From the NCBI GenBank assembly GCA_016280445.1, contig JAEEGS010000069.1, positions 1 through 64,000 of the forward strand: a DNA stretch of 64,000 nucleotides, given 5' to 3'. Positions 8,344 to 61,300 of this stretch are shown here, one piece after another. Each line of letters starts with the position of its first letter. The first letter of the stretch is position 1. This DNA is from Bacteroidaceae bacterium. GTDB taxonomy: Bacteria > Bacteroidota > Bacteroidia > Bacteroidales > Bacteroidaceae. The notes beneath the pieces were generated by a model. That model ran no database searches. It saw only the letters and a program-made list of their open reading frames with translations, and was not told the DNA's origin. The position numbers and the translations under genes are program-made.

Positions 8344-9423
8344 CTATTTTTTTTCCGAACACTGCTCATACAAAAAATGAAGAGATTCTTTACGCATCAT
8401 ATCTAATTTTTTATCAACAAGATTGTAGTCTATTGGAACACTCTCAGACGGAATGTCATCTTTAGGAGCCATCAGGCGATTTAACAAGCCCAACGAGGAT
8501 AAAAGAGAATAAGCTCTGTCTATTTTATTAAAAGATGCATAGAAAGGCTTATGAAACAATAACGCAAATACCAACCCATGAAAGGAAGAAGTAAACACAT
8601 AACTAGAATTACTCAACAATTCTAGAAACGACCTTGGGTCTTCTATATTGTCAATTCTCCTTCCAGGCCTATCTCTTCCTGATATTATTTTGATATCCAA
8701 ATCATGCTTCTTTGCAAAAGCATTAACCTTATTAATATCAAATGTGTCTTTTAGTTTATAATAAAATACATATGAATTATTGCAATTACATATTTTAAAC
8801 AATTTCTTCCAACGAACAGAGGTCATCAATAATGTTGGATCCAAATCTTGTCTTACCTTACTATATCCTAATTTTGCGACAAAATCAGCTAGATTTTTCT
8901 CACGAACAGAAATTGCATTTAAATAGGACATATTATCCTTTAGCACCTCAATATCTTTATCATTATCGGGTAAGAACCCCATACTTACAGCATAGGATAT
9001 TCTTTTAACTGCCTTAATATCATACTTTCCAAAATAAATGGGATCGTATGTATTAATTTCTGGTTGTTTACGCCAAACCTGATCACTTCCATAGATAATA
9101 ATATCATAAGAATCACAGCATGAAGACAAGTAAGGTTGTATATATTCTGAAATAAATGCATTAAAAACTTTAATTCGCCGTCTTCTATACTTGCAATTTC
9201 TCACACAATTTCTTATATATCGTATTTTCCCCAATATGCCTTTCTGGGTCGTCATCATCCATTTCCATGAAAACAATAAATATCTATGTTGTTGGTAATT
9301 GGGCCAATAATCTATGTATGTGACCTGGTGCCCCATATCCGCAAGCACATTTCGCAATGCTATGGCCTGTAACAAGGCACCATAATTATGGCTACGATGA
9401 TATGTTAATATCCCTATCTTCAT
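8344..9423 (-). CDS. polysaccharide pyruvyltransferase family protein (second copy)
   Basis: A 359-residue pyruvyltransferase-family protein: KIGILTYHRSHNYGALLQAI at the N-terminus, IIYGSDQVWRK near 110, SYAVSMGF, ISVREKNLADFV and SSYVFTSSFHGLVFALLF near 275. It differs strongly from the copy at 5246-6394, so the two are not a recent duplication and probably act on different sugars. It overlaps the flippase gene by 4 bases (ATGA-type coupling). Confidence 0.9.
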   Translation of the reverse strand: MKIGILTYHRSHNYGALLQAIALRNVLADMGHQVTYIDYWPNYQQHRYLLFSWKWMMTTQKGILGKIRYIRNCVRNCKYRRRRIKVFNAFISEYIQPYLSSCCDSYDIIIYGSDQVWRKQPEINTYDPIYFGKYDIKAVKRISYAVSMGFLPDNDKDIEVLKDNMSYLNAISVREKNLADFVAKLGYSKVRQDLDPTLLMTSVRWKKLFKICNCNNSYVFYYKLKDTFDINKVNAFAKKHDLDIKIISGRDRPGRRIDNIEDPRSFLELLSNSSYVFTSSFHGLVFALLFHKPFYASFNKIDRAYSLLSSLGLLNRLMAPKDDIPSESVPIDYNLVDKKLDMMRKESLHFLYEQCSEKK

Positions 9424-10964
9424 TTTCTCTTCTTATAATAGTATTTTCTTACCAATTCTATAGTAAAACTGCGTTCTCGGCTTTTCAATCCTAAACACCA
9501 TATAACCACCAAAGATATTATGGTTGAGATACAGACATAAACAAAAAGAAAATAAAAAGACTCATAGAACATAATGGAAACCAAATAGTTAACAGAAAAT
9601 ACCACCATAAAAACCACAGCCACTCTGAACAGAACCTCTTTAATATAACCACTAAGAGGAATATCTGTTATTGATCTTAAAATAAACAATCTTGTAAAAA
9701 TTGATATGATGTCCACAATTATAATTACTATATAGACACTATATGGAGGATAATCAAGGTAAAGAACTAAGTATGACAATGGCAGAATAAGAATACGCAA
9801 ACCTCCTATAATCAAGGCGTTTCCTTTGATTTTTCCTGTTGCTAGAATGATTGTTGTGAGTGGCGTACTCAAAACCGTAATAAGGCCATATAGCAGCGTA
9901 AGACGAACAAAAACATTGACATAATCAGGAAGTATGTTTAACCATAGCCTCAAAATGTAATCTGATTTAAAAAAAATAGGTGTTGATATGATTAACATCA
10001 AGAAAAACGAGAACTTGGCCCCCCTATAAACGAGGCTGATAGATTTATTCATTTCTCCAGCTGCATAGGTTTTTGTTATCTGCGGTTTTAGGGCTGTCAT
10101 GAAATCATTCACAAATTTGGATGCCGCATGCTGAACTTGGACTGCTATACCTCTGGCCGCATTTACAGCCACACCACAGAACAAATTTAAAACAATATTG
10201 ACACCATGATTTGCTAAAATGGAAGCAATCGACCCAAGGAAAGTATAACCTGCAAAACTTGTTTGATGTATATAAGCATCTTTATCCTTTACAATCCGTA
10301 GTTTCGTTATTTCTGAAAAATGTTGCTTACAATAGCAAAAATAAATAACATTATTCAGTATTGATACTCCTAAAAGTAAAATAGCATAAATAGCCAGTCT
10401 GTCAGGCTCTACAAGATACAACAGATAACATATACCTAGTTTCAACAATGCATCCAGCAAACTTATATATGCGAAAGCCTTCATTCGCTCAAAGGCTATT
10501 ATTACAGCGTTATATGGCATGCATAGAACATTTAGTAGGAATGCACACACAGAACACTGGAAGACAACATTTGCAGCAAACATTCTTCCTTCTGGAATAT
10601 TCATTTTAGTATTTAGGAACCATAACCCAAATGTTTCAAAAAGTAATACAAGAACAAAAGAAAGTATCGTATGAATGCCAATGGCGGTGTTGAATATTTT
10701 ATTCACATCTCCATTTTCTTTTTTGCCTAACTCTACATTAAGAAAGCGCTGAGTTGAAGAAACAAGGGTGCCTCCAACTAAAGAGAACATTGCCACAAAC
10801 CCTCCAATGACATTATAGGTACCATAGTCCTTCACACCCAAAGATGAAAGTATCACTCTTGATGTATACAGACTTATACCCATTACAATAAGCGTGCGCA
10901 AATACAACAAAAAAGTATTTTTGGCTAAACGCTTATTGTCTGATGACGAGATTGTTTGTGTCAT
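9420..10964 (-). CDS. wzx: Wzx-type oligosaccharide flippase
   Basis: A 514-residue inner-membrane protein of the MOP/polysaccharide-transport family with about 12-14 hydrophobic segments. The N-terminus (KRLAKNTFLLYLRTLIVMGISLYTSR, residues 9-34) and the GTYNVIGGFVAMFSLVGG segment are typical of Bacteroidetes Wzx proteins. It moves the undecaprenyl-linked repeat unit to the periplasm. Its start codon overlaps the stop of the ThDP-enzyme gene by one base, and its end overlaps the pyruvyltransferase start by 4 bases. Confidence 0.92.
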   Translation of the reverse strand: MTQTISSSDNKRLAKNTFLLYLRTLIVMGISLYTSRVILSSLGVKDYGTYNVIGGFVAMFSLVGGTLVSSTQRFLNVELGKKENGDVNKIFNTAIGIHTILSFVLVLLFETFGLWFLNTKMNIPEGRMFAANVVFQCSVCAFLLNVLCMPYNAVIIAFERMKAFAYISLLDALLKLGICYLLYLVEPDRLAIYAILLLGVSILNNVIYFCYCKQHFSEITKLRIVKDKDAYIHQTSFAGYTFLGSIASILANHGVNIVLNLFCGVAVNAARGIAVQVQHAASKFVNDFMTALKPQITKTYAAGEMNKSISLVYRGAKFSFFLMLIISTPIFFKSDYILRLWLNILPDYVNVFVRLTLLYGLITVLSTPLTTIILATGKIKGNALIIGGLRILILPLSYLVLYLDYPPYSVYIVIIIVDIISIFTRLFILRSITDIPLSGYIKEVLFRVAVVFMVVFSVNYLVSIMFYESFYFLFVYVCISTIISLVVIWCLGLKSRERSFTIELVRKYYYKKRK

Positions 10965-16069: not shown

Positions 16070-16101
16070 TTTGGAGACATGGCTGTTTTGTCGTAACTTT
16101 G
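16070..16101 (+). promoter_or_regulatory. Bacteroidetes promoter of folP
   Basis: TTTG (16070-16073), 20 bases, then TAACTTTG (16094-16101) is an exact match to the Bacteroidetes consensus. The start point should fall within a few bases of the folP ATG at 16107, so the transcript would be leaderless or nearly so. The preceding non-coding stretch (15883-16069) shows nothing else I can name. Confidence 0.75.
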
Positions 16102-16106
16102 CAACG

Positions 16107-16970
16107 ATGAAGGCTTCTGTTCCATACACACTCAATGTGAGGGGAAGACTGCTCGACCTCTCCACTCCGCAAGTGATGGGCATCCTTAATGTGACTCCCG
16201 ACTCGTTCTATGCAGCGAGCCGCGTGGAGACGGAGGAGGCCATCCGCAAGCGTGTGCGGCAAATCGTAGCTGAGGGCGGAAGCATTATTGACGTGGGTGC
16301 CTATTCATCTCGTCCGGGTGCTGATGATGTGTCGGACGAGGAGGAGATGGAGCGATTGCGACGGGGCATGTGCATCGTGAGGGAGGAAGTGCCGGAGGTG
16401 CCGGTGAGCATCGACACGTTTCGTGCCGATGTGGCAAAGATGGCCATCGAGGAGCTGGGAGCCGACATCATCAACGACATTTCAGGCGGAGAACTGGACA
16501 AGAGGATGTTTGCGACGGTGGCAAAGCTTGGGGTGCCTTACATCCTGATGCACATGAAGGGAACACCACAGACCATGCAACAGGCACCTCACTACGATGA
16601 CCTGATGAAAGAGGTGCTGCTTTATTTTGCGAAGAAGATTCAGCAGTTGAGAGACTTGGGGCAGAAAGACATCATCATCGACCCTGGCTATGGGTTTGCG
16701 AAGACGCTCGACCACAACTACGAACTGCTGCGGCATCAGGACATGCTGGGCGTGTTTGAACTGCCCATCTTGGCCGGCGTGTCACGCAAGAGCATGATAT
16801 ACCGCCTGCTGGACTGCTCGCCCGAGGAGGCGCTGAATGGCACGACAGTGATGAACACCATCGCCTTGCAGAAAGGTGCCAACATCCTGAGGGTGCACGA
16901 TGTGAAGGAGGCGGTGGAGGCGGTGAAACTGAGTGAAAAATTGAAGTGGCCATGCGGTCTGCGTGAGTAA
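16107..16970 (+). CDS. folP: dihydropteroate synthase
   Basis: A 287-residue folate-pathway enzyme that joins p-aminobenzoate to dihydropterin diphosphate; sulfonamides act here. The pterin-binding TIM barrel shows MGILNVTPDSFYAASR, IIDVGAYSSRPGAD, VSIDTFRADVA, DIINDISGG, IIDPGYGFAKT and GVSRKSMIYR. A TTG at 16071 opens the frame further upstream, but the promoter lies there, so ATG 16107 is the start. The pairing with cdaA 39 bases downstream is common in Bacteroidetes. folE, acting earlier in the same pathway, is at 44056. Confidence 0.95.
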   Translation: MKASVPYTLNVRGRLLDLSTPQVMGILNVTPDSFYAASRVETEEAIRKRVRQIVAEGGSIIDVGAYSSRPGADDVSDEEEMERLRRGMCIVREEVPEVPVSIDTFRADVAKMAIEELGADIINDISGGELDKRMFATVAKLGVPYILMHMKGTPQTMQQAPHYDDLMKEVLLYFAKKIQQLRDLGQKDIIIDPGYGFAKTLDHNYELLRHQDMLGVFELPILAGVSRKSMIYRLLDCSPEEALNGTTVMNTIALQKGANILRVHDVKEAVEAVKLSEKLKWPCGLRE

Positions 16971-17009: not shown

Positions 17010-17783
17010 GTGTTTGATTTTGGCATAAAAGACGCTATCGACATTGTTTTGGTTGCCCTGCTGCTCTACTATGCATGGCGGCTGATGAAGTCGTCGGGGT
17101 CGCTCAACATCTTCTACGGCATCCTCGTGTTTGTGGTGACGTGGATTGTGGTGTCACAGATGTTGGAGATGAAGCTTTTGGGCAGCATCTTCGACAAACT
17201 GGTGAGCGTAGGTGTCATTGCCCTTATCATCTTGTTTCAGGAGGAAATCAGACGCTTCTTCCTCACGTTGGGTTCGCAAAGGCGACTCCATTTCATCACA
17301 CGTTTCTTTGTCAAGCATAAGGAAGGGGCAGAAAGGGAGCATCTGGATCAGCAGTTGATGCGCATCGTACTGGCATGTGACAACATGAGCAAGAACATGG
17401 TGGGTGCGCTCATCATTCTGGAGCGCGAGATGTCACTGAGCGATGTCATCAAGTCGGGCGAAATGATTGATGCCAACATCAGCACGGAACTCATCAAAAA
17501 TATCTTCTTCAAGAATTCTCCTCTGCACGATGGTGCCATGATTATCAGCCACAACCGCATTATGGCAGCTGGCTGCATCTTGCCTGTGAGCCACAACCTG
17601 AACATCCCGAAGGAACTGGGATTGCGCCACCGCGCCGCACTGGGTATCACCTCGCAGAGCGATGCCATCGCCATCATCGTGAGCGAAGAGACAGGCGCCA
17701 TCAGTGTGGCACAGGGCGGAGAGTTCCATCTGCGACTGGCCAGCAACGAATTGGAGAGCTATCTGATCAATGCACTGAAATAA
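17010..17783 (+). CDS. cdaA: diadenylate cyclase (c-di-AMP synthase)
   Basis: A 257-residue membrane-bound CdaA-type cyclase that makes c-di-AMP from two ATP. Three N-terminal hydrophobic segments occupy about residues 8-75, and the DAC domain follows. The catalytic motifs are both present: DGAMII near 177 and RHRAALG near 212, with the GAISVAQGG end. The start is a GTG at 17010-17012. c-di-AMP governs osmolyte transport and cell-wall homeostasis. A terminator-like hairpin after the gene separates it partly from murF. Confidence 0.94.
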   Translation: MFDFGIKDAIDIVLVALLLYYAWRLMKSSGSLNIFYGILVFVVTWIVVSQMLEMKLLGSIFDKLVSVGVIALIILFQEEIRRFFLTLGSQRRLHFITRFFVKHKEGAEREHLDQQLMRIVLACDNMSKNMVGALIILEREMSLSDVIKSGEMIDANISTELIKNIFFKNSPLHDGAMIISHNRIMAAGCILPVSHNLNIPKELGLRHRAALGITSQSDAIAIIVSEETGAISVAQGGEFHLRLASNELESYLINALK

Positions 17784-17786
17784 CCA

Positions 17787-17813
17787 GCCCACGCGCTGGG
17801 CGTAGTTTTTTTT
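17787..17813 (+). terminator. terminator-like hairpin after cdaA
   Basis: GCCCA (17787-17791) pairs with TGGGC (17797-17801), extended by flanking C/G bases, and eight T residues follow after four bases (17806-17813). The stem is short, so read-through into murF is likely. No TAnnTTTG promoter is visible in the 52 bases before murF. Confidence 0.5.
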
Positions 17814-17834: not shown

Positions 17835-19124
17835 ATGGAACTGAAGAATTTATACGAACTCTTCCTGCAACATCCGACCATCACCACCGATAGCCGCGAT
17901 GTGCCAGAGGGTTCGATGTTTTTTGCCCTGAAAGGGGAAACTTTCGATGGCAATGCCTATGCCAAAATGGCTTTGGAACAGGGAGCAGCCTATGCCATCG
18001 TGGATGAAAAGGAGTATGCTGAAGAGGGTAACCAGCAATTGATTCTGGTGGACGATGTGCTCACCACCCTTCAGCAACTGGCAAGATATCATCGTGAACA
18101 ACTCGGCACCACCATCGTCGGCATCACGGGCACGAACGGCAAAACCACGACGAAGGAACTGATTGCCGCGGTGCTGAAGAAAAAGTACAACGTGCTCTAC
18201 ACACAGGGCAACTTCAACAACCACATCGGTGTGCCCAAGACGTTGCTGCAACTGACCAAGGAGCATGAGATGGCCGTCATCGAGATGGGTGCCAACCATC
18301 CGGGCGAAATCAAGACACTGGTGGAGATTGTGCGCCCCAACTATGGCATCATCACCAATGTGGGAAGGGCCCACCTGCTGGGGTTCGGTTCGTTCGAGGG
18401 TGTCATCCGCACGAAAGGTGAACTCTACGATTTCCTCAGGGAAACGAAAGGCACAGCGTTCATCAACAACGACAATCCGCATCTGCTGGGCATCAGCGAG
18501 GGACTGAAACTCGTGAAGTATGGACAAACGGATGCTCCCAACTTGCTGGTAAATGGCCAACTGGTGGAGTGTAACCCCTTCCTGAAACTGGAGTGGACTG
18601 GCGGTGTGGTGCAGACCCGACTCATCGGTTCCTACAACCTCGACAATGCCCTGGCCGCAGCCTGTATCGGCACGTTCTTCCAGATTCCAGCCAACGACAT
18701 CTGTGCCGCCTTGGAAGAGTACACACCATCAAACAACCGAAGCCAGTTGACGGTGACGAAAGACAATCGCCTTGTGGTGGATGCCTACAACGCCAATCCT
18801 ACCAGCATGAAGGCAGCGCTGGACAATTTCCGATACATCAAGGACGACCACAAGATGTGCATCCTCGGACAGATGGGTGAACTGGGCGATGTTTCAGAAG
18901 AGGAGCACCAGAAGGTGATTGACCTGATTGGCGAAGGTGGCTTCGAACAGGTGTGGCTGGTGGGCGAGAACTTTGCTAAGACGAACCGCCCTGCCGACTA
19001 TCGCCTCTTTGCCAATGTGGACGAGGTGAAAACCGCCCTTGCCACGAAAAAGCCCAAGGGATTCCTCATCCTCATCAAAGGCTCGAACAGCAACAAACTT
19101 GTGCAGACCGTAGAACTGCTGTAG
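17835..19124 (+). CDS. murF: UDP-N-acetylmuramoyl-tripeptide--D-alanyl-D-alanine ligase
   Basis: A 429-residue Mur ligase that adds D-Ala-D-Ala to the UDP-MurNAc tripeptide in the cytoplasm. The N-terminal substrate domain has TTDSRDVPEGSMFFALKG. The central ATPase domain has the P-loop GITGTNGKTTTKEL (near 98) and AVIEMGANHPGEI. The C-terminal domain has VVDAYNANPTSMKAAL and ILGQMGELGD. Start ATG 17835. The nonribosomal peptide synthetase gene begins only 16 bases after its stop, implying co-transcription. Confidence 0.96.
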   Translation: MELKNLYELFLQHPTITTDSRDVPEGSMFFALKGETFDGNAYAKMALEQGAAYAIVDEKEYAEEGNQQLILVDDVLTTLQQLARYHREQLGTTIVGITGTNGKTTTKELIAAVLKKKYNVLYTQGNFNNHIGVPKTLLQLTKEHEMAVIEMGANHPGEIKTLVEIVRPNYGIITNVGRAHLLGFGSFEGVIRTKGELYDFLRETKGTAFINNDNPHLLGISEGLKLVKYGQTDAPNLLVNGQLVECNPFLKLEWTGGVVQTRLIGSYNLDNALAAACIGTFFQIPANDICAALEEYTPSNNRSQLTVTKDNRLVVDAYNANPTSMKAALDNFRYIKDDHKMCILGQMGELGDVSEEEHQKVIDLIGEGGFEQVWLVGENFAKTNRPADYRLFANVDEVKTALATKKPKGFLILIKGSNSNKLVQTVELL

Positions 19125-19140
19125 CAATCATGCACAGACG

Positions 19141-22100
19141 ATGAAGACCTACCCTCTGTTGCAATCCCAGATAGGAGTCTATCACGCATGGAAGGCTGAC
19201 CCCACATCTGTAGCATACAACCTGCCGGCGGTTGTTCCCTTCTCGCTGAACATCGACATCGGCAGGCTGGCACAGGCATTGCATGACATCTGGGAAACAC
19301 GACAGGAACTGCACACACAATTCACCATCAACTCCAAAGGAGAGCCTTGCCAATGGGCTGACTCTTCTTTGGAGTTTCCTTTCACCTGCCGACAAAGCAC
19401 GGAGGATGAGGCTTTGCAATATATTGAGAAGGGTTTTGTGCGCCCCTTCGAAACATTGAACGGGCAACCTTTGGTGCGCTTCGAAGTCATCAAGACCGAA
19501 GTGCATCACTACCTGCTCTACGACATGCACCACCTCATCTGCGATGGTCTGACGCTCTCACTCGCCTTTCTCAATAACGATTTGCCCACTGCCTACGAGG
19601 GGCAAACGTTGACGCCTCATCCATACGGGCTCTATCAGCATGCCGAAGCGGAACAAGCATCGTTCTGTAGCGACAACTACCAGCGCGATGCCCTCTTTTA
19701 TCAGGAGCACTTCCGCAACATCGACTTCATCAGCCTGTCCGACAAGGTGGCAGACCCGTGGGGACAACGGCTGGAGGCAAGTGCCACGCTCGACATGGAT
19801 GCCATCAACCATTGGTGCCGACAGCAGAACACCACTCCCAACCATCTCTTCATGGCTGCCTTCAGCATCGTCTTGGCACGTCTCAGTGGAAATCAGAAGG
19901 TGGCGTTCATCGCTCTCCATCATGGCAGGACCGACCACCGATTGGCACAGGCATACGGCATGTTCGTGAGTTCCTTCCCTATCTTGGCACAAATCGACGA
20001 GGAACTGACCGTCTCTGACTTCATCAGCCAGTTGCGCCGATGGACAATGAGCACCATCCGTCATCAGACCTATCCGCTCACCCACCTGTGCCGCGACCTC
20101 CACAAGACCCCTTCCACCACCTTCGCCTTTCAAGGCAGCAATATCCTCGAACAGACCACCACTGGAGGGGAAATCACACAGGGCTATCAGCCCGTGCAAG
20201 GCACCACCAAGAATGACCTAAGTTGCACCATCTACACGAAGGGACAGCACTACGAGATACGGACAGAAGCCAGCGCATCACTTTGGAGCCAACAACGTCT
20301 GCAACGGATGGCAAATGCCGTTGCCGCCTGTGCGCAGAACCTGATGGCACATTCCAACGGCACTCTTGCCGACATCGACATCACCACCTCTCAACAGCGA
20401 GCAGAACTTCTTCAATTGGGGCAAGGCAAGCGACTTGACTACGACCACAGCCAAACTTTCGTGAGCCTCTTTCTGCAACAGGCAGCAGCAACCCCTGATG
20501 CCCTCGCTGTCACCGATGGAGAGACGTCACTCACCTATGATGAACTGAACCGCCGTTCTGCCGCTTTGGCCACCTATATCATGCAGAAACAATCCGTTAG
20601 ACCTGGTGACCATGTGGCCATTGCCACAGGCCAGTGCACAGCATTCCTCGTAGCCGCCATAGCCGTCTCACGCATGGGTGCCACCTACATCCCAATAGAT
20701 ACGGATTGGCCAGAAAGCCGGAAACGATACATCATGGAGGATGCACAAGTGGTCGCCACCATTGACGGGAACGAGCATCTTTCAGCCATCACGCCCATCA
20801 GCCTCAACCTCAACAGGGCTGCCCCTTCCTCTCTTGCCTACATCATCTACACCTCTGGCACCACTGGACATCCGAAAGGTGTGATGATACCCCATCATGC
20901 CCTGCTCAACTTCGTCCATTCCATCGTCAACCTTTTTGGCCTCACATCTGAAAGCCGCATCAGTTGCCACTCTTCAGTCGCTTTCGATGCCTCGGTGGAA
21001 GACCTCTTCCCCGTGCTCACGGTGGGTGGCAGCGTCCACATCATGCCAGAGAGCATCCGACGCAATCCCGCCCAAATTCATCAGTTCATTCTCGACCACC
21101 ACATCACAGGCGGATGCTACACCACCCATTTGGGCGTGATGCTGGCACAACATTTCCCACTTTCCCAGGACTACCTCTGTTTGGGAGGCGAACGGCTGAC
21201 CACGTATTTGGACACACAGCCGCGGGTCTTCAACACGTATGGCCCCACTGAGTTCACGGTGGATGCCACCTACTACGCATTGCCTGCCTCTGCCCCTTCG
21301 TCCCTTGTCTCGAAGAATCCACCCATCGGCCGTCCATTTCCCAATCTGACGGCATACGTGGTCGATAGCCAAGGGCATCTTCTGCCACGAGGTGAGGTGG
21401 GAGAACTGCAACTGGCTGGTTCACAGATATCCAAGGGCTACTGGAAACAACCTCAGGAGACCATCGAAGCCTTTGCCGAGAACCCGCACGTTCAGGCTCA
21501 GACGTACCGAACGGGCGACCTTGTGCGTTGGAACGAGGAGGGGCAACTGGAATATCTTGGCCGTAAAGACCGCCAACTCAAGCTGCACGGCTACCGCATC
21601 GAACCAGAAGAGATAGAACAGCAACTCCTTCAGATAGAGGGTGTCCGGCAGGCTGCCGTCACCATGATTCATCCTCAAGACAAGCCACAACTCTGTGCTT
21701 ACTTCACAGCTGACTGTTCCCTCTCACCAGCGCATCTCACCCTAGAATTAAGCCGTTCCCTTCCTCCTTACATGGTGCCCGCACTCTTCTGCCAACTGGC
21801 AAAAATGCCACTCACAACAACGGGAAAGACCGATTACAACAGTCTTCCCCAACCAGACGTTGATGCTCCTGCCGATGTTCCTCCCGCCAATGAGGAGGAG
21901 CGCCTCTGGTGCGACCTCTTCGCCCAAGTGACAGGAACGCCCCATGTGGGAGCCACCGACAATTTCTTCCACATTGGCGGCACCTCCATCCTTGTTGCCT
22001 CCCTACAGGCTGAGGCACTCCGACACAGCATCCATCTCGCATACGGCGATGTGTTCGCTTACCCAACTCCACAAGCGTTGGCTCAACACCTCAACAACCA

Positions 22101-23154
22101 CAAAATCGACATCGTCGACGTCGACCAACCGATGTCGACGACATCGGCAAGTCGACGTCGACGACATCGGCAAAGAGGTACTGAAAGCGCCCCTATCGGA
22201 GATATTCTTCTCACGGGTGCCACGGGCTTCCTTGGCCGTCACGTGCTCATCGAGTACCTCAACACCGAAACTGGCACAGCATATTGTCTTGTCCGCTCCA
22301 CCGACGAAGCACATGCCTACCAACGTCTGCTCGAAACCCTCGGCGGCACTGGAGTTGAGTCTCACCTCGGCACACGCATCATTCCCATCGCAGGCAATCT
22401 CCAATCCCTCACTCCTCATCAACTGCCAGCCTCCATCAACACCGTCATCCATTGTGCTGCCGACACACGCCACTTCGCTGCCGACAACATCATTGAAGAC
22501 ACCAACATCTACGGCACCGACCGCATCATCAGTTTCTGTCTTGCCAAGTCGGCACGGCTCATCCATATCTCCACCCTCAGCGTTGCCCTTCTGCCTCAAG
22601 AGGACGCTGATTCCATTGTGCACACAGGGTTAAGCAACCCCTACATCCAATCCAAAGCAATAGCAGAACAGCACATTCTTGAGGCCATTGCCCATCATGG
22701 ACTGAATGCCACCATCATGCGCATCGGAAACCTTGCCACCCCACTTGGACAGGCACATGGAGGGCTACTCGACACCCTCGACACATTCCGTTTCCTAGGC
22801 GAATACCCACAATCGCTGGCCGACCTCCCCATTGACCTCTCCCCTGTCCATCTGACTGCACGTGCCATTCTCCTGCTGGCTGCTCATGCCACCAACTGCA
22901 CCATCCTTCATCCTTACAATCCACACACCACCACACTCGGTGCCTATCTCCAACAGCACGGCAACCCCACCCCCGTCGGCGACACCCAATTCCAAAACAC
23001 CCTCAAACAAGCCATGAACGACCCCAATCGACTGGCCATGCTGGTTCCCCTGCTCCACTATCAAGCCATGAAAGACACAAACACCCTTCTACCCACCTTG
23101 CCCGACAACTCCCAAGAATGCCAGCTGCTTGAAGAGTCAGGTTTTGCATGGTAG
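19141..23154 (+). CDS. single-module nonribosomal peptide synthetase, C-A-T-reductase
   Basis: A 1337-residue synthetase. A condensation domain comes first (about 1-430; HHxxxDG motif as MHHLICDG near 132). An adenylation domain follows (about 440-900; SGTTGHPKGVMI, NTYGPTEF, YRTGDLVRW, TGKTDYNSLP), then a carrier domain with the phosphopantetheine Ser in HIGGTSILV (near 947). Last is a thioester-reductase domain (about 1020-1337; LLTGATGFLGRHVL and the YxxxK pair in NPYIQSK). Hand alignment to PheA gives specificity residues D-A-E-C-C-G-T-V-D-K; the acidic E and D might suit a basic amino acid, a weak guess. Reductive release would give an aldehyde or alcohol. The leading condensation domain suggests N-acylation or a partner protein elsewhere. 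Confidence 0.93.
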   Translation: MKTYPLLQSQIGVYHAWKADPTSVAYNLPAVVPFSLNIDIGRLAQALHDIWETRQELHTQFTINSKGEPCQWADSSLEFPFTCRQSTEDEALQYIEKGFVRPFETLNGQPLVRFEVIKTEVHHYLLYDMHHLICDGLTLSLAFLNNDLPTAYEGQTLTPHPYGLYQHAEAEQASFCSDNYQRDALFYQEHFRNIDFISLSDKVADPWGQRLEASATLDMDAINHWCRQQNTTPNHLFMAAFSIVLARLSGNQKVAFIALHHGRTDHRLAQAYGMFVSSFPILAQIDEELTVSDFISQLRRWTMSTIRHQTYPLTHLCRDLHKTPSTTFAFQGSNILEQTTTGGEITQGYQPVQGTTKNDLSCTIYTKGQHYEIRTEASASLWSQQRLQRMANAVAACAQNLMAHSNGTLADIDITTSQQRAELLQLGQGKRLDYDHSQTFVSLFLQQAAATPDALAVTDGETSLTYDELNRRSAALATYIMQKQSVRPGDHVAIATGQCTAFLVAAIAVSRMGATYIPIDTDWPESRKRYIMEDAQVVATIDGNEHLSAITPISLNLNRAAPSSLAYIIYTSGTTGHPKGVMIPHHALLNFVHSIVNLFGLTSESRISCHSSVAFDASVEDLFPVLTVGGSVHIMPESIRRNPAQIHQFILDHHITGGCYTTHLGVMLAQHFPLSQDYLCLGGERLTTYLDTQPRVFNTYGPTEFTVDATYYALPASAPSSLVSKNPPIGRPFPNLTAYVVDSQGHLLPRGEVGELQLAGSQISKGYWKQPQETIEAFAENPHVQAQTYRTGDLVRWNEEGQLEYLGRKDRQLKLHGYRIEPEEIEQQLLQIEGVRQAAVTMIHPQDKPQLCAYFTADCSLSPAHLTLELSRSLPPYMVPALFCQLAKMPLTTTGKTDYNSLPQPDVDAPADVPPANEEERLWCDLFAQVTGTPHVGATDNFFHIGGTSILVASLQAEALRHSIHLAYGDVFAYPTPQALAQHLNNHKIDIVDVDQPMSTTSASRRRRHRQRGTESAPIGDILLTGATGFLGRHVLIEYLNTETGTAYCLVRSTDEAHAYQRLLETLGGTGVESHLGTRIIPIAGNLQSLTPHQLPASINTVIHCAADTRHFAADNIIEDTNIYGTDRIISFCLAKSARLIHISTLSVALLPQEDADSIVHTGLSNPYIQSKAIAEQHILEAIAHHGLNATIMRIGNLATPLGQAHGGLLDTLDTFRFLGEYPQSLADLPIDLSPVHLTARAILLLAAHATNCTILHPYNPHTTTLGAYLQQHGNPTPVGDTQFQNTLKQAMNDPNRLAMLVPLLHYQAMKDTNTLLPTLPDNSQECQLLEESGFAW
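22107..22173 (+). repeat. GTCGAC-rich direct/inverted repeat in NRPS linker
   Basis: The DNA for the linker between carrier and reductase domains is a run of GTCGAC palindromes. The 17-mer GTCGACGACATCGGCAA occurs exactly at 22134-22150 and 22157-22173, and related ACATCG/CGATGT units lie upstream. The encoded linker is unusually basic (SRRRRHRQRG). It looks like local slippage expansion in a tolerant linker. Confidence 0.8.
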
Positions 23155-23221
23155 GAGCACTTTTTTGACACCTAAGCGAAATTTTATCCATGATGAGTCA
23201 TGATTTATGGTATAAAATCCC

Positions 23222-23229
23222 TACTTTTG
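23222..23229 (+). promoter_or_regulatory. -7 element before the repeat-rich secreted protein
   Basis: TACTTTTG fits the TAnnTTTG consensus and lies 29 bases before the ATG at 23259. A clear -33 TTTG at the right distance is not seen. It suggests that the downstream gene is transcribed on its own and not only from the synthetase transcript. Confidence 0.5.
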
Positions 23230-23258
23230 CACACAGAAACCACCAAACGACACTGATA

Positions 23259-24167
23259 ATGAACGGGAAAATCATCCTATTACTTTGGCTGGCACTGGCT
23301 TTGCACATCGACATGACAGCTCAAACCCAAGCACCCACCCCCACCACGAACGAAGAGGTGGTGCAGGATCTGAAGACACGCATCAGAACTGCCAAGGAGA
23401 AGGTGCGCGCCAGTCGTACACAACTGAAAGATGACGAGCGAGAAGTGGCAAGACTGACACGCGACTTGGAGCGCACTCGCCGACAAATCCAAAAAGACAA
23501 ACTTGCCGCAAGAAAGGCAAAAGCCAAGGGAAAGACCTACACACCCAAAGTGGTCACTCCTCCAACAACCACCTCAAAAACAAGTGCTCCAAAGACAACT
23601 GCTCCAAAAACGAGCACTCCAGAAACAAGCGCTCCAAAGACGAGTGCTCCAAAGACGAGTGCCTCAAAGGCTAATGCTCCTAAGGCTAACGTTCCAAAGA
23701 CAAATGCTCCAAAGACAAATGCTCCAAAGACAAAGACGTCCAAAACAGAAGCTCCAAAAACAGAAGCTCCCCAAACGGTTGTAGAAAAAAGAAAAGCCAG
23801 CCTCGCAGCTACAAAATCGGCTAAAGAGGAGAAAAAACAAAAAGAAGAAAAGGCTCCCAAAGCCGAAAAGGCACCGAAAGTAGAGAAAGCACCTAAGACT
23901 AAACAGACGCCCAAGACTGAACCAGCACCTAAAGTAGAGAAGGCACCTAAGACTGAGCCAGCGCCTAAGGTTGAAAAAGCGCCAAAAGCAGAGAAAGCAC
24001 CTAAGGCAGAAAAAGCACCTAAGGCAGAGAAGACTCCAAAGGCACAAAAGAAAGAAGAACGTGAAACAAAAGTCACCCCCAAGAAGCGCAATGTGAAAGT
24101 CAGCGTGAGACGTAAACGCGACATGAAAAGTGATGACACGGAGGAGGACAATGAAACCGATGAATAA
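23259..24167 (+). CDS. secreted Lys/Ala/Pro-repeat protein
   Basis: A 302-residue protein I do not recognise. Residues 1-22 are a signal peptide (GKIILLLWLALALHIDMTAQ). Residues about 30-85 form a coiled coil (VARLTRDLERTRRQIQKDKL). The rest is low complexity: runs of A-P-K-T/N/S units, then A-P-K-[AV]-E-K units, ending in a basic patch (KKRNVKVSVRRKRD) and an acidic tail. The coiled coil plus extended Pro/Lys region suggests a periplasmic or envelope spacer, perhaps peptidoglycan- or nucleic-acid-binding; that is speculation. The frame also opens at 23190, but a promoter lies in between, supporting ATG 23259. It follows the synthetase by 104 bases. Confidence 0.7.
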   Translation: MNGKIILLLWLALALHIDMTAQTQAPTPTTNEEVVQDLKTRIRTAKEKVRASRTQLKDDEREVARLTRDLERTRRQIQKDKLAARKAKAKGKTYTPKVVTPPTTTSKTSAPKTTAPKTSTPETSAPKTSAPKTSASKANAPKANVPKTNAPKTNAPKTKTSKTEAPKTEAPQTVVEKRKASLAATKSAKEEKKQKEEKAPKAEKAPKVEKAPKTKQTPKTEPAPKVEKAPKTEPAPKVEKAPKAEKAPKAEKAPKAEKTPKAQKKEERETKVTPKKRNVKVSVRRKRDMKSDDTEEDNETDE

Positions 24168-52251: not shown

Positions 52252-52364
52252 CCCACAGAATTTGTGAATGTAAGAATTGAAAGGCAAGACTTCTTGCTGT
52301 GGGGGATGTGTTTGCGCCCCGAACATGGGTTGATCGAAAAAGATACAATGAAAACAAAAACACT

Positions 52365-55300
52365 ATGAAACAAAAACTATTACTAATCTTTTGCATGCTG
52401 TTGGGCTTCCTGCTGACCCAACAGACGTTTGCCGCTGATTACTTCATGCAGACGGAGAGCAATTACAAAGCGACGGTCATGGGCATCGACAAGATTCAGT
52501 TCTCGTTGCCCACCCAGTATGACGGCAGTGGTAACGAAGGCATTGTGATGGGCAAAGTCTTCGTGCAAGTGGACGGGGAGTCGAAACAGCTCCTCTTGGA
52601 ATGGCACTGCAAAAAGTACGACGAACTGTTCAACAATGGCTATGAGAGTGGCTACACCTATGTAACGAGCTATCAGGACGGCACCTACCAGGTGCTCGGT
52701 AAGGTGATGGGTGGTGTCAAGACTTTTAATGGTTACTCTGCAGTTGAGTATCGTTTGAACCACGATGATGACAACAACAATCATTTCACCTCTGTCTTCG
52801 AATGGAAAGTGCCACGCTCCCTGCGCGGCCATAAGCTGAAATTCTATGTGTGGGCAAGAATCGACAGTCCTACCAACCACTGGTTTATTCCTGATGGCAA
52901 AGCGTCTGAATCCGATGCCAAATTATTGACGGAATGGAGTTGCCCGGCAGCACCAGAGGTCAATGTCAGCGCGAACGACCCCATGCTGGCGTTCGACAAG
53001 GATCATGTGAACCAACAAATGTTCACCTATAGCGTGCAGGCAAAGTCCATCAACTGGATTCGTCTCCACTATACCGACGTCCTGACAGGTGTCATCAGCT
53101 CTAAGGAACTGGACAAGACGAAGATGGCCGACATAGCCTATCTTCCTGCCAACCGCCCGTTACGCGACATCTACGTTGAAGCAAAGGTGATCGACTCGGA
53201 AGGGGTCACGGTGGATGAGACCATCAAGTCGGACAAGATGTCAACAGACATGATACACTATCCCCAAAACCTAAAAGCTGAATACACGTCGACGGGAGAA
53301 ACCTACCTGACATGGACCGTGGAGCATGCAGAACTGGACGATGCCATAGAAAATGACTTCTTTGAAATCCAGCGCAATCTAACTGGCTCGACCTCGCCCG
53401 ATGATGCCAACTGGACCACCATTTCTGCCGCCATCATGTTCAAGAAAGATGTGGACAGTTATAACTTTACCGACGAGACGCTGCTTAACTATTACAAAGG
53501 CAAGAATGTTGCCTACCGCATACGCCGCGCCTACACAGCTATGTGGCAATGGGCAGAAGGCTCCGGATACGATCAGTGCCAGATGTCTTCGCTCCTCATG
53601 TTGCCTTGGGTCGTGACACCTACGGTGCAGCGTGGCAACCAGTGGGACGATGAAGGTCATCAGGTGGTCTTTGACTTCCGCTTCAGCGGCCCGCAGACGG
53701 ACAACAAAGGCCGCATCATTATCCGTAACGAAGTGGAATGGGAGCAGTTTGCCCAATTGGTGAACGAGGGGCAGACCAACTTGAAAGCGGTTTTAGGCAA
53801 TGATGTCAACATCAACCTCTCGCAAGTGATGGTAGGTACTAAAGAACACCCCTTTAGCGGTGAGTTCAACGGCAACGGCTATACGCTGAAAGTCAATTAC
53901 ACCAACTATCTGCAACGGACAGCCCCCTTCAGCTATATCAAGGGAGCCACCATCAAGAACCTGCAAATCGACGGCTCCATCAAGTCAAGCGAAAAGTATC
54001 TGGCAGGTCTCGTGGGTCAAGTGCTTTCAGGCGGTAACGTTCCGCTCATCGAGAATTGCCGCGTATCGGCCATATTGGAGAACAGTTTCAGTACTGAAGC
54101 AGCCTGTATGGGTGGTTTCATCGGTCAGAACGAAGATGCCCGCTTAGTGGTGCGCAACTGCCTTTTCGACGGACAACTGTTAGGCGAGAAAAGTTATGGC
54201 AACGGTGGTTTCGTGGGTAACACCACAACGGGCATGAAGATTGAGAGCTGTCTGTTCACCCCCACTGCCATTACCACTATGAAGAAAGACTGTATGACCT
54301 TTGTCCGCGGTCACGTGACGACCACGGAGAACAGCTACTTTTCCGAATCATACAACGAGACAATGACCATCGACGACAAGGAGTTCCTGCTAATCAATAA
54401 CGTCAGCGACTGGAACCACTTCCGCGAGTTGGTGGCTGATGCTGGTGGCAAGAAGGATATCAATGCCATCCTGATGAGCGACATCTCTGTTACCCAGCCT
54501 GTAGCGTCACTGTCTTCGCCCTATCGCGGCATCTTCGACGGTAACGGCCATACGCTCGACGTCCACCTCTGGGATGCCGATAATTATGGGTTGGCTCCTT
54601 TCCGTTTTGTGGGTGATGTCACCATCAAAAACCTGCGCGTGACTGGTCAGGTCATCGCCGGCAAGGAGCATGCAGCAGGACTCATCGGCTGCAGAAGCGG
54701 AACACCTGAAATCCATATTGAGAAAGTGTGGGTATCGGCCGATATTTCCACGGCGGATCGCTATCTCGCCGGTATTATAGGTCATGTCGGTGGTGCAAAT
54801 GCATATATCAGCGACACCCGTTTCGACGGCACGCTGACAGCCACTCCTGATTCCTACGGTGCAGAGAACTCGTTTGCAGGTGCCATCATCGGATGGGGTG
54901 GCGAAGGCGGCTGGACCTTCCACCGTGTCTATGACCAAAGCACCTTTGTCTGGTGCTATTGGCGTTTCTTCTGCGTAGATTCTTCGGATGACAAGACGCA
55001 TCTGAACTGGGGAAGCAATGGTAAGAGCACCAATACCATGACCTGGAACAGCTGGAACACTGTGAATTATTATAATAAGAGCGACCAGGAGGAAGTGATG
55101 AATATTATGAACAGCGAGGTGCCTGGCTCGTGGCAGATCGTCGATGGCATGGCTGTACCCGTCTTGAGCGTTACTTCTGCTCAGGGCAATTCCACTAACG
55201 AACTCACCGGTAGTGAACTGGCTGTGAAATTGGGCAAAGGCTGGGAACTGCAAGAAGAGGTGCCACGACCCGTCTTCACCCATCCCGAAGGAAACCTTTA

Positions 55301-58300
55301 CGGCCATATTGTCTGGGATCAGCGCGCTAAATTGCAGTTGCGTGTCAACATGCATGGCGAGAAGGGCGTAGAGTCAAACATCATCGACCTCTCGGGCAAC
55401 CAGGATGCCATCAAGAATCAGATGTTCACGCAGGAACTGACCCGCAAGTGCGTGGATTATTCCTTCGATTTCATCGTGAAACGTGACAAATCGGTGATGC
55501 CCATCATCGGCACTGATGCCGACAGCATCGTGGTGACCGTTGTCAAGACCGATGAGGCTGCACTACAGGACTACCGCTTTGTGAACAACGGTCATATCAA
55601 GAACCTGACATCAGAAACTCGTCAGAGCAGTGTAGCACTGTTCTGGGACATGTCAACAGGCGACTACGACTTCTTCCGTGTGCTGCGCCGTCTGCACACC
55701 AACGATGCCAATGCCGAATGGACCGACACGATAGCCACCAACCTGAACCAGCTGTTCTACGAGGACAAGACCGTGCTCGTACAGAAGACCTACGACTACA
55801 AGGTGGAGAGTGTCTATCAGTGCGAGGGTACCACCATCGACGGCATGACTTGCACAGGCGCCTGTGCCGTGACGGGTATGATCAGCGGTTATGTGCGCAT
55901 GGCTGACGGTACCGCCATGGGTGGTCTCAAAGTGTTCTGCGAGCCAGACGGCCTCATAGCAGGTGCCAGTGCCGATTCCATCTATACCGACGATACCGGC
56001 TACTACGAATTCAAAGGTCTGCCGTACCATGTCAATAGCAAGGGTGAGACCGACGGCCACTATAAGATTCATATCGAAGGTACAGGCGACACTGGTTCCT
56101 TTACGGGTCCTAACGTGGGCGGTACAGTGACCTTCGACCAGAACTCCAACTGGGCACAGGACTTCAACTTCTGGATGGACACCTATTTCATCTTCTCGGG
56201 CAACGTATACTACGACGGCACGTCGATGCCTGTGCAGGGTGTATCGTTCAAACTCGACGGCAACGAGATGCACGATGCCAGCCAGCAGGTGATTACCACC
56301 GACACGCAGGGTGCCTTCACACTGAGCATTCCTGCCGGTCAGCATCAAGTGCAAGCCGTGAAGGACGGTCACGTCTTCTTGGAAGACGGATTCTTGGTAA
56401 ACAACAATGCCATCGACGCTGCCCATCGCTACAAATACGAATTCAACAAGAACGTGTCGCAGTACGTCTTCTGGGACGCTACCACCGTCATGCTACGCGG
56501 TCGCGTGGTGGGTGGCGACATCGAGGGCGACAAGCCCTTGGGCAATTCGCTGTCGACGAACAACCTGGGCGACTCCCTCAAGATTGTGCTGCAGCTGGAA
56601 GGTGACAACGCCTCTTGGATGGTGCGCGACCAGAAAGACCCCACTGTCAAGACACGCAGCGAAATCTATGTGTTCGGTGCTGCCGACAAGGACACCACAC
56701 GCGTAGAGACAACCCGCCACACCATGACCATCCGTCCCGACCATGAGACGGGTGAATACCAGCTGATGCTGCACCCCGCCAAATATAAGGTGATTGAGGT
56801 GTCGGCTCAGGGCTATGCCACGCTGTTCCAAGCAGGTAAGGTGGGCGAGACGCTCGACCTGGCCTTCAACGTGGAGAACGACACCTGCGTGTATAACCGT
56901 ATCTATCATGCTGTGCCCGATTTGGAAGTCACACAGTATAACCCCAGATTGGAACCCTACTTCGGCACCAAGAAGACTACCGCAACCGATAATATCGGCA
57001 ATGTGGCTAATGTGGAGCTGTGGGGATACAAATCCATCAACGAAAAAAAGGACAGCATCCCCTACTACTCGTTCGGCTATCCTGTCTTTATGGCGAACTC
57101 GCCCTACGGCTGGATGCTACAGGCCTGCGAGAAATACTACTGGAACAACAAACCGACAGACAGGGTGGACATCGTCAAGCTGAACGGCGGTTCGGTGCTC
57201 ATCAAGAACTATATGGTGAGCAACGACGAGAGCAAGCTGGCCACCACCCTCGACTTGGACGACACGGGTTATGCTTCGTATGTATTCACCCCAGACAATA
57301 CAACCAATGTGCTGGAGGACGAGATGGCGCTGCGCAGCGTTGACATCACGCTGAACTACGACGGCAACTACTATGACATCAAACCATTGGACGGACAGCT
57401 GATGAAGGGCTTTGTGATGGCCACCACCCCCAAGAAGGAAGGTGTCTATACCGTAGCAGCCAGCTATCCTGTGCTGATTGACGTGCTTCGCGACCCGCCT
57501 GGTGGTGGCAGTAGCTCCTATATTGAAGCTGGTTCAAAACTGAGTTATTCCTACGCCCCAAGTTTCGAGGGTACACTGGGTGTAAACATGTCGAATAAGA
57601 CTGGAACCTACACCACTCTCTACAAGGGAATGGTGGCTGTGAACCCACAGTCAGGTGCAGGTTCTGCCAATGGTACGGTAACAGAGGCAAGTTCCCACAA
57701 GAACTTCTCCTTCTCACTGTCAACTACCTTTAACGGAAGCTGGACGACCAGCTATACACTTGATGTCACGGAACGCATCCAGACCAAGAGCAGCCAGATA
57801 TGGGTGGGTCCGAAAGCTGACCTCTTCATGGGTACCAATGAGAGCCTGATCGTTCAGGACGCCATTGCCGTACGTGCCATCCCCGAGAAGCAATACCTGT
57901 TGATGAAGAACAACGAGGGCGGCTCGTTTATGGTGACCGACTCCTTAGGCAATACGGCTAAAGTCAAGGTGACGGTGGGTGCCATGAAGGTGCTGGCCAA
58001 GGGCACAGATACCAATGGCAATCCCGTCTATCTGGTACGCGATGAGGTGATGAGCGTCATGAACAAGGTGAACTCCACCTTTATCCATTCGCAATGCTAC
58101 ATCGAGGACGAGTTGCTGCCGAATCTGGCAAAACTTCGCAACAGTCTGATCCACCCCATGGGTACGATTGACAATCCGCAGAAATTAGCTGACGAGACAG
58201 GCAAAAGCGTGTATGTCAGCAAGGTGGATGTCAAGGATCCTTTCTTTGGTTCTACGGATAATGTATTATGGTATCATCCAGACAACGACCCCAATGCCGT

Positions 58301-61300
58301 CAACGAAGTGTTGAATTACAATCAGGAGATGGGTCGTTGGATCACCATGCTGGCAGAGAACGAGATGGAGAAGCTGACCGTTCAACCCAACAACTTGGTG
58401 AAGAACTATGACTTCGATGGTGGTGCGGCTTCCATACAGTATAGCGAGAACTTCAATGCGTCGCGCGTCAAGAGCGGTTTCATCAAGTGGCCGGGACTGA
58501 GCAATCTCAGCAATATCGCCAACATGTTCCCCGACTGGGCGTTAGGAGCTATTGAAGACCTCAATAAAGGTCAAGATGCTAATGGCGCCAGATATATTAA
58601 AGACGATCCCAATGCCACCTTCGAACTCGTGTCTGGCACGGCCACTAACGGTGTCAAAATGAAGTTCACTCCCATTCTCGGTTTCAATTTCAACGACAAG
58701 AGCAGTGAGACGAACAGCAAGACGAAGAAGGTGGGCTTTACTCTGAGCATTGCCAGCAAGGCGAGCATGAATGTTGATGTCTATCGTTCCGCTAACGGTA
58801 AGTACAGCATCGATGAGGATACGAATAACGCCATCTTGGAGATGACGAAGGAGGTGCTGGACGAGTTGGCCTACGGTCAGCCTTATCATCCCGACAACGA
58901 CATCGAGGTCTATTCCAGCTTTGTGTTCCGTACCCGTGGCGGCATCACCTGCCAGCCCTACGAGGGTGAACGCAGGACGAAGTGGTACCAGCCTGGCACC
59001 GTGCTCGACCCTGCCACGGTCTCGATGGATAAGTTGCGCATCTGGGTGGAGGAGCCCGTGAAGAGCAACGTGCCTTTCGACGAGCCTGCCCGTTTCGTGC
59101 TGCACATGTCGAACGAGAGCGACTTTTCGGAACAGGCTACGCTGTCGTTCAAGTATTATCTTGATTCCCGCAGCAATCCGAAGGGGGCCACGGTGTGTGT
59201 CGATGGGAAGGTGATCAATGCAACGGGTGAGAGCGTGTCGTTCTATCCCGTCATCAACCCCATCACTGGCAAGCACAATGTGATTACGAAGGAGATTACC
59301 GTCTATCCCAGCACGGCATACGACTATGAGGACCTGTCGCTGTGTCTCTATGACCCTGATGACTTCGTGCGCGTCTATTCCACCAACATCTCTGCCCATT
59401 TCATTCCGTCGGCTGGCAAGGTGAGGGTGAGTGTGCCTGGCGACAAGTGGGTCATCAACACCGAGAGCCCTTATGACAGCAGGCGACTGGCATGGTATAT
59501 GCCTGTGCGCATCGAGGGCTTCGACGTGAACTTCCCCAATTTCGACCATATCGAACTGCAATACAAGCTCTCGACGCAGGGCGACAAGGACTGGGTGAAC
59601 GTCTGCTCATACTATGCTGACGAAGCGCTGCGTGCCAAGGCCAGCGGCGTGACCGACTCGATACCGTCCAGCGGTATCATCGTGGCTCCGTTCTACGGCG
59701 AGGTGGATCCCATCGAACAATACTACGACATCCGTGCCGTCAACTACTGCCGCTATGCGGGCGGATTCCTGACACGCTCGTCGGAGATTCTCACTGGTAT
59801 CAAGGACACGCGTCCGCCACGTCCGTTTGGCACACCTGAGCCTGTGAACGGCATCTTGGGCATCGGCGACGATATCAAGATAGCCTTCTCGGAGCCTATT
59901 GCTGGTAACTATCTGCGCAGCATCAACAACTTCGAGGTGCTGGGACAGCCTGCATCCAACAGTCTCTCCACCTCTACCAGTCTGGCCTTCGACGAATACT
60001 CTTCGTGTTTAACGGAAGAAATGAACCTGACGGGAAAGAATTTCACCTTCGACATCATGGTGAATCCCATGAAGACTGAGAAGAACATGCTGGTGATTGG
60101 TCACGGCCTTGCCGCCTTCGGACTGACTGCCGACCGCCACATGGTGGCTGTCATCAACAGTACGACCGTGACATCGACGAGTGCGGTCGATTTCAATAAC
60201 GTGCTGCATCGCATTGCCTACACGGTGGAACAGGAGAAGGACCATCTGACCGTTCATTTCTACGACGGCGACAAGCACATCGGTCAAGGCGCCATCCCGG
60301 GTGTCTATCAGGAGACTGGCAATGTCTATCTGGGCTACGACCTGCTGGGCCTGCTCGGTGAAGGCTCTGGCTTCAAGGGCGACATGCTCGACTTCCGCAT
60401 CTGGAACCGTGCGCTGAGCGGCAGCGAACTGAGTGTCTACAAGAACAAGACGCTGACGGGCTACGAGATTGGATTGCTCAGCTACTACCTACTAAACGAG
60501 GGTGAGGGCGACTACAGTTACGACCGTGCGCTGAGCGGCAACGACATGCACTGCTTCTTTGCTTCATGGAAACGACCCAAGGGCATCTCGCTGCGACTAG
60601 ACGGCCAGAAGGGCATCCGCATGGACGGCACCCACTTCGAACGCAGCAGGGAGCACGACTACACGCTGATGTTCTGGTTCAAGACCCAGAATCATAACGC
60701 CACCTTCATGTCAAATGGCGAGGCGACCCATCACGACATCTCCGGCAAATTCAACATCGGCTACAAGGACAATGCCCTGTATTTCCGTTCGTCGGGTTAT
60801 GAGGTATCTGCCATCAATGCGCTGACGGACTTCTCAACCTGGCACCATTACGCCATGACAGTGTCGCGCTCGCGAAACGTGGCCAACATCTATCTGGACT
60901 GCAAGCTGGTGGCCTCGGTGGCTGCCGACAGTCTGTCGGGCATCAATGGCGAACACATCGAACTGGGCGCTACCTATGTCGATAAAAACACCGATACCGA
61001 CATGATGAGTGGTAACATCGACGAGGTGGCTATGTTCTCAAGCGTATTGCCGCTGAACCTCATCGAGACGTATGCCTACAATACACCCTCTGGACGGGAG
61101 TCGGCGCTGATAGCCTATCTGCCCTTCGAGGTTTCCGAGCGTGACTACTACAACCAGATGCAGCTGGTACCGACGGGAGTGAGCCTGAAGCGATACATCG
61201 ACAACCAGGGCAAAGAGTCGGTGCGCCGCGATACGCTGGTGGTTGTCAGCAACGATATAGCCGACAAAGAATTCTACGCACCGATGCATAGCAACTCGAA

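Follow-up and report, generated by a model that had tools for sequence, protein, structure and literature searches.

The stretch of DNA analysed here (hereafter the window) comprises 64,000 nucleotides of contig JAEEGS010000069.1 from a Bacteroidaceae bacterium (GenBank assembly GCA_016280445.1; G000 in our genome set). Its forward strand contains, at positions 19141..23154, a gene that starts with ATG and encodes a nonribosomal peptide synthetase (NRPS) of 1337 aa. This protein consists of one module with a condensation (C), an adenylation (A), a thiolation (T, carrier) and a terminal thioester reductase (R) domain, as indicated by Pfam, NCBIfam and a search of solved structures. The reading that we favour, tentatively and at somewhat less than an even chance, is that this enzyme stands alone and makes an N-acyl basic amino aldehyde.

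The open reading frame (ORF) shows the Pfam domains Condensation, AMP-binding, PP-binding and NAD_binding_4 in this order, which is the domain set of an NRPS with reductive release and agrees with a preliminary description of the gene made from the sequence. The C domain (19144..20412; Pfam Condensation, residues 2-424, 202 bits) has the motif HHLICDG at 19528-19548. The A domain (20533..21828) matches AMP-binding (223 bits), TIGR01733 (residues 465-840) and AMP-binding_C (residues 824-896), and the T domain (21910..22092; PF00550 PP-binding, residues 924-984, 30.6 bits) carries Ser949 within GGTS. The R domain (22204..23067) matches PF07993 NAD_binding_4 (residues 1024-1219, 104 bits) and TIGR01746 (residues 1022-1309, 133.5 bits) and contains GATGFLG, S1144/T1145, Y1168 and K1172. 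All the catalytic motifs that the preliminary description called intact (HHLICDG, GGTS, GATGFLG and Y-x3-K) are therefore present as claimed. The match to TIGR01746 stops at position 319 of 371 and lies below the cut-off of 213.35, so the C-terminal end of the R domain is short or diverged. The nearest solved R domain is that of AusA (4f6c, E 8e-32), in line with a terminal reductive-release domain. An AlphaFold2 model of residues 1-430 had a mean pLDDT of 90.9 and a pTM of 0.87, and the structure model of residues 1010-1337 had values of 81.0 and 0.83. The best NCBIfam matches of the whole protein were AusA (NF047350; 650.8 bits, cut-off for equivalogs 2500), with residues 3-1290 on profile positions 994-2316, and MxcG (NF038078; 431.7 bits, cut-off 2300).

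Relatives of the synthetase were searched for in the family (matches in 54/301 genomes at E<=1e-60), in the genus (16/45) and with a profile (54/399 at E<=1e-200). These draws overlap, and among the 54 profile matches many of the long frames, as well as the partial matches in G034, G070, G073, G194, G228 and G718, were left unread. A contig scan confirmed nine loci, of which only L037 is close (86% identity); L099 was omitted because it is the same stretch as L037. Locus L037 comes from the goat reticulum and belongs to the same genus as the window genome; G306 is very likely the same metagenome-assembled genome. A one-module gene with the specificity code DAEC(C/V)GTVDK is present in 11 Bacteroidaceae genomes, with identities down to 34%. 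The version DAECCGTVDK is found in G000, G306 (87%), G183 (56-57%), G113 (65%), G157, G199, G171 and G314, and DAECVGTVDK in the one-module genes of G225, G047 and G159 (the latter in two contig fragments). Six of the 45 genomes of the genus carry the synthetase, and none of the six showed a second NRPS, the matches at E<=1e-60 falling in one frame (for G000, G306 and G113 among the first 14 candidates). The flanks read around the one-module genes likewise showed no further NRPS gene.

Loss of catalytic residues in homologues, which would have spoken against the preliminary description, was looked for in an alignment of 11 proteins and not seen. The HHxxxDG motif is intact in all 11 C domains, and the C-domain His, His, Asp and Gly, the A10 Lys, the T-domain Ser and the three Rossmann Gly residues are kept throughout. 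The R-domain Ser, Tyr and Lys are also present in 11/11, and the R-domain Thr is Thr in nine proteins and Ser in two. Compared with its counterpart at L037, the synthetase gene has a dN/dS of 0.148 over 1330 codons; by domain, the values are 0.107 (C), 0.130 (A), 0.107 (T) and 0.209 (R). In the comparison with G113, dN/dS of the A domain is below that of the C domain (0.165 to 0.192). A close characterised homologue, with another function or the same one, was not found in the solved structures or in the papers reached.

The ten code positions were mapped by an alignment anchored on Escherichia coli EntF, which recovered the EntF code DVWHFSLVDK and, as a control, DAFWLGGTFK for AusA module 1, which we take to be valine-like. 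The window enzyme has D616, A617, E620, C659, C680, G682, T699, V707, D708 and K896, that is, DAECCGTVDK. This code is the same in eight genomes and changed at one position in three. Among ten DAEC-type proteins 9 of the 10 code positions are invariant, versus 92 of 466 A-domain columns; three of these invariant positions (the first Asp, the Gly and the last Lys) are frequent in A domains as a whole. DAECCGTV shares five of eight positions with the lysine code of BacB (DAESIGSV) and five of eight with DGEDHGTV of Pseudomonas syringae pyoverdine synthesis, and both lysine codes printed in the source of these codes have Glu at the third position (PMC3207962). We therefore favour a basic amino acid as the predicted substrate of the A domain, with lysine as the first candidate.

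The genome of the window, G000 (84 contigs, 97.22% complete), has a single Condensation match, the window synthetase itself; in line with the preliminary description's term "stand-alone", no NRPS partner was found in this genome. PF00550 matches two proteins, the synthetase and an 82-aa frame that we take as acyl carrier protein (ACP). PF01648 has one match, an Sfp-like phosphopantetheinyl transferase (PPTase) of 193 aa on another contig, whose best NCBIfam model is AusB (71.5 bits, cut-off 225). The five PF00501 proteins are the synthetase and four others that fit acyl-CoA ligase models best, each scoring under the curated cut-off. Two of the four are PaaK-like, one, encoded near vorB, is MbcS-like, and one is of the long-chain type. 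The MbcS-like gene shares its contig with the PPTase gene. A second amino-acid-activating enzyme or an NRPS carrier in trans was not seen in G000. With acyl-CoA ligases as the likely products of the four other AMP-binding genes, acyl-CoAs are probably available.

In the pathway that we favour, the single Sfp-like PPTase would activate the carrier domain of the synthetase, and the A domain would load a basic amino acid, most likely lysine to judge by its code, onto this carrier. The C domain would then acylate the aminoacyl group from acyl-CoA or acyl-ACP, donors suggested by the lack of a further NRPS carrier among the matches in G000. Finally, the R domain, whose class is known for this reaction and whose motifs are intact, would reduce the thioester with NAD(P)H and free the N-acyl amino aldehyde. 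The aldehyde may persist, be reduced further, or cyclise onto the side-chain amine.

The preliminary description had proposed to establish by phylogeny whether the C domain is of the starter type. In a tree of 71 sequences the C domains that open a protein (those of the one-module enzymes, of the first modules of dimodular synthetases and the first one of G281) group together with an ultrafast bootstrap (UFBoot) of 100, apart from the second-module C domains; the exception is the first C domain of G318, which falls within the second-module group. The trees omit four modules without C motif, three without A motif, duplicate fengycin sequences, and a C domain that is truncated where L139 begins. 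The approximately unbiased (AU) test (5000 replicates; 10,000 are advised) rejected none of the alternatives, with p values of 0.287 for the forced first-module grouping, 0.338 for second-module C domains and 0.467 for fengycin starter C domains. The forced tree of the favoured grouping is 9.8 log units below a free tree that already contains this grouping; search noise is thus larger than the differences, and the AU test discriminates nothing. A starter type, which the best tree favours, was therefore not established, and the grouping with first modules of dimodular synthetases is a hint.

Several points weigh against the reading that we favour. Neither the tree nor the AU test decides between the possible classes of the C domain, the grouping with first modules being a hint, and the best solved match of this domain is a tyrocidine synthetase 3 chain, which is presumably not a starter. 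A partner could be encoded in the missing 3% of the genome. The synthetase evolves faster than murF (dN/dS of 0.148 versus 0.057 relative to L037), and in two of the ten DAEC-type proteins the N-terminal A subdomain before the TSG motif is shorter than in the window enzyme, by 35 residues in G225 and by 22 in G314 (loci L105 and L048). As to the substrate, the window code is identical to none of the lysine codes compared, and the lysine assignment of DGEDHGTV is a prediction that the other method of the same paper did not confirm (PMC3207962).

In one alternative, acyl transfer is not a task of the C domain. A free amino aldehyde would then be released, or the enzyme, acting as a dimer, would join a pair of its own aminoacyl units, and dimerisation or cyclisation would turn the product into a pyrazine, a pyrazinone or, with lysine, a cyclic imine. 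Minimal A-T-R enzymes, which lack a C domain, indeed yield pyrazines or pyrazinones (PMC7586950; PMC10512218), and pyrazinone synthetases are typically C-A-T-C-A-T-R (PMC10979478), which is the layout of the dimodular synthetases found in other Bacteroidaceae. However, retention of HHxxxDG in all 11 proteins and the joint-lowest dN/dS of the domains relative to L037 (the A domain being lower relative to G113) argue that the C domain is probably used, and we consider this alternative unlikely. Slightly less probable again is a mode of action like that of MxcG of myxochelin synthesis, in which the acyl group would come from a carrier in trans, either the fatty-acid ACP or a carrier encoded in the unassembled part of the genome. 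MxcG is fed by the aryl carrier protein (ArCP) domain of MxcF (PMC8400222), and it is the second-best NCBIfam model for the window enzyme. A partner aryl carrier protein was not found among the PF00550 matches of G000, which are the two proteins mentioned above, and because the Condensation match starts at residue 2 there is little room for an N-terminal docking domain. A third possibility, that the enzyme is what is left of a longer assembly line and itself forms no product that matters, would fit the shortened A domains and the patchy distribution in the genus, but is improbable in view of the purifying selection, the intact motifs and the near-invariant code.

The synthetase gene starts 16 bp behind murF (17835..19124, forward strand), its co-directional upstream neighbour, as had been described, and the gap is nearly equal at L037. 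Upstream of murF on the same strand are folP (16071-16970) and cdaA (17010-17783), which like murF were identified by Pfam and NCBIfam; "essential-gene run", as the preliminary description put it, is a fair name for this region. A pattern scan, whose matches have no evidential value for function, gave terminator-like sites in the gap between cdaA and murF (17784-17805) and none between murF and the synthetase gene. The spacing makes it probable that transcription of the folP-cdaA-murF unit continues into the synthetase gene. This gene is followed by a low-complexity ORF rich in K, A and P (23190..24167, forward strand) without Pfam (E<=0.01) or NCBIfam family. This order of murF, synthetase and K/A/P-rich gene is shared by L037; by eye, G113 has a similar ORF behind the synthetase gene, and G183 has none there.

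Forty of the 45 genomes of the genus gave a murF match, and 30 of these loci were read (L069-L098, up to 1.5 kb past murF). The synthetase gene directly follows murF in 4/30, and the K/A/P-rich gene was matched downstream of murF in 12/30. In many relatives lacking the synthetase it is this K/A/P-rich gene that comes after murF, so the interval occupied by the synthetase is closed up in close relatives. The slot behind murF is variable in the genus: an arabinofuranosidase-like ORF (by eye) is present in two of the 30 loci, and other genes or none elsewhere. A chance ORF or a misassembly is ruled out, because murF and the synthetase gene are adjacent in four genomes, including G183 with a synthetase that is 57% identical. 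Plain vertical descent at this site is opposed by a tree of murF and cdaA from 30 genomes, in which species free of NRPS separate G183 from G000/G306 and G113; repeated loss and transfer together with flanks are indistinguishable here. Recent capture of a cluster fragment was also rejected: among ORFs of >=600 aa at L099-L106 and L048, the synthetase alone shows NRPS motifs (shorter ORFs were read by eye, and L179/L180 were read too). As cargo of phages or plasmids the gene found no support, all matches to 43 phage records and 268 plasmid records being below 60% identity (the plasmid search was made with the C domain only).

The preliminary description had also stated that biosynthetic, export and PPTase genes are missing nearby. 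Among the 29 window ORFs scanned, a subset of those in the window, no second NRPS, PPTase or transporter family was matched by Pfam; dihydroxybenzoate synthesis genes were not seen among these ORFs either, and no genome-wide search for such genes was made. An ORF at 9420-10964 without Pfam match resembles, in our own reading, a polysaccharide flippase. Elsewhere in the window, a 3632-aa ORF (52299-63197) has laminin G-like and carboxypeptidase-regulatory-like domains.

In relatives the synthetase gene is also found at other sites. Of the 13 genomes of genus g19, three have the enzyme (E<=1e-200), in each case encoded on the same strand behind a gene for an S13 D-Ala-D-Ala carboxypeptidase (L102, L103 and L104), with gaps of ~140 to 360 bp. 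The S13 assignment comes from a Pfam run on the copy of G199 alone; the others show 96-100% and 79% identity to that of G171. Two unrelated sites of at least four thus follow a gene for a D-Ala-D-Ala enzyme (murF and the carboxypeptidase), a coincidence that was noticed post hoc and involves too few sites for a test. Behind the synthetase fragment at L179 (G159) lie an uncharacterised ORF and then convergent ORFs resembling, by eye, ftsZ, ftsA and ftsQ.

Twenty multi-module loci were fetched. Dimodular synthetases make up 18 of them, some interrupted by a stop or a shift of frame or truncated at the end of a contig; of the other two, one has three modules and the other four or more. A larger synthetase in G281 carries DAECVGTVDK in its module 2; at L122 (4633-19503) this code stands in the second module of a synthetase that has six HHxxxDG motifs and an ORF leaving the fetched stretch. 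The DAEC code was absent from six further matches at E<=1e-120 in an order-wide search of 393 genomes. A second code type, DAEGTGVDDK, is present in G238, G779 and G722; in the first two (L110, 66-11777; L177, 1-10702) the C-A-T-R gene with this code lies 21 and 22 bp, respectively, behind a dimodular reductase-terminated synthetase gene. A frame with DAEGTGVDD in G677 (L148), from another family of the order, indicates that this second type occurs outside Bacteroidaceae. The A-T-R frames of G559 (L144; cut by the contig end) and G352 (L146), 1268 and 1155 aa long, have the code DASVAGAVAK and no visible HHxxxDG. A 1530-aa ORF of G112 with the code DAQSRGCVAK, which is outside the counts given here, is the second half of a dimodular synthetase. 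L141, filed as a Staphylococcus phage, is probably bacterial DNA, its dimodular synthetase being read as the aureusimine synthetase of S. aureus.

Since the gene follows murF in one genus and the gene for a D-Ala-D-Ala carboxypeptidase in another, we propose a possible tie to cell-wall synthesis. The one-gene pathway of scattered Bacteroidaceae would then make an N-acyl lysine-type aldehyde, as a signal or as an inhibitor of peptidases of the serine or penicillin-binding type, in step with peptidoglycan assembly; we rate this as a long shot, more improbable even than the remnant. If an N-acyl amino aldehyde is made at all, a single 4-kb gene without a surrounding cluster would suffice for gut and rumen bacteria to produce such a reactive compound, and mining based on clusters may underrate this layout. 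Several relatives keep the enzyme, its predicted binding pocket being nearly constant among them, so the product looks worth finding. By its size the enzyme can be expressed whole, its code is near-identical in 11 genomes, and direct use of acyl-CoA by a stand-alone C-A-T-R enzyme can be decided in vitro.

Among known systems, the products of gut peptide-aldehyde NRPS clusters reportedly inhibit proteases. Clusters with aldehyde products are known from the gut (review PMC12282076), and with them the window enzyme would share, at the level of description, an aldehyde-type product of an NRPS in gut bacteria. ATRed of Xenorhabdus indica and AsaC of Aspergillus resemble the window enzyme in having one module with a terminal reductase outside a long assembly line, but they are A-T-R enzymes without a C domain (PMC7586950; PMC10512218). 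The other Bacteroidaceae synthetases of the type C-A-T-C-A-T-R (for instance those of G155 and G014) also end in an R domain, and their reductase-bearing module is 32-35% identical in most of the listed alignments; they differ in having two modules, codes such as DAMFSGGIFK and DAQSRGCVAK, and other loci. With the aureusimine synthetase AusA the window enzyme has in common the C-terminal order C-A-T-R and the nearest solved R domain, and the PPTase of its genome fits AusB best. However, AusA is dimodular, 27.1% identical, has the codes DAFWLGGTFK and DAMSIGAVIK, and its model scores the window enzyme below the cut-off. MxcG presumably has the domain order C-A-T-R of the window enzyme, in agreement with the end-to-end match to its model. 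It acylates lysine and releases its product by reduction, both as predicted for the window enzyme, with MxcE and MxcF providing 2,3-dihydroxybenzoate (PMC8400222); for the window enzyme no partner genes were found, and its score lies below the MxcG cut-off. Rumen Bacteroidaceae have been reported with 934 NRPS clusters (PMC8241843), so NRPSs are not new in this family. The part for which no paper was recognised in the open-access PubMed Central literature searched (subscription papers and preprints were outside its scope) is the orphan one-module form with its conserved code. C-A-T-R modules as such are already known from MxcG, and the window enzyme is a variant of this known kind.

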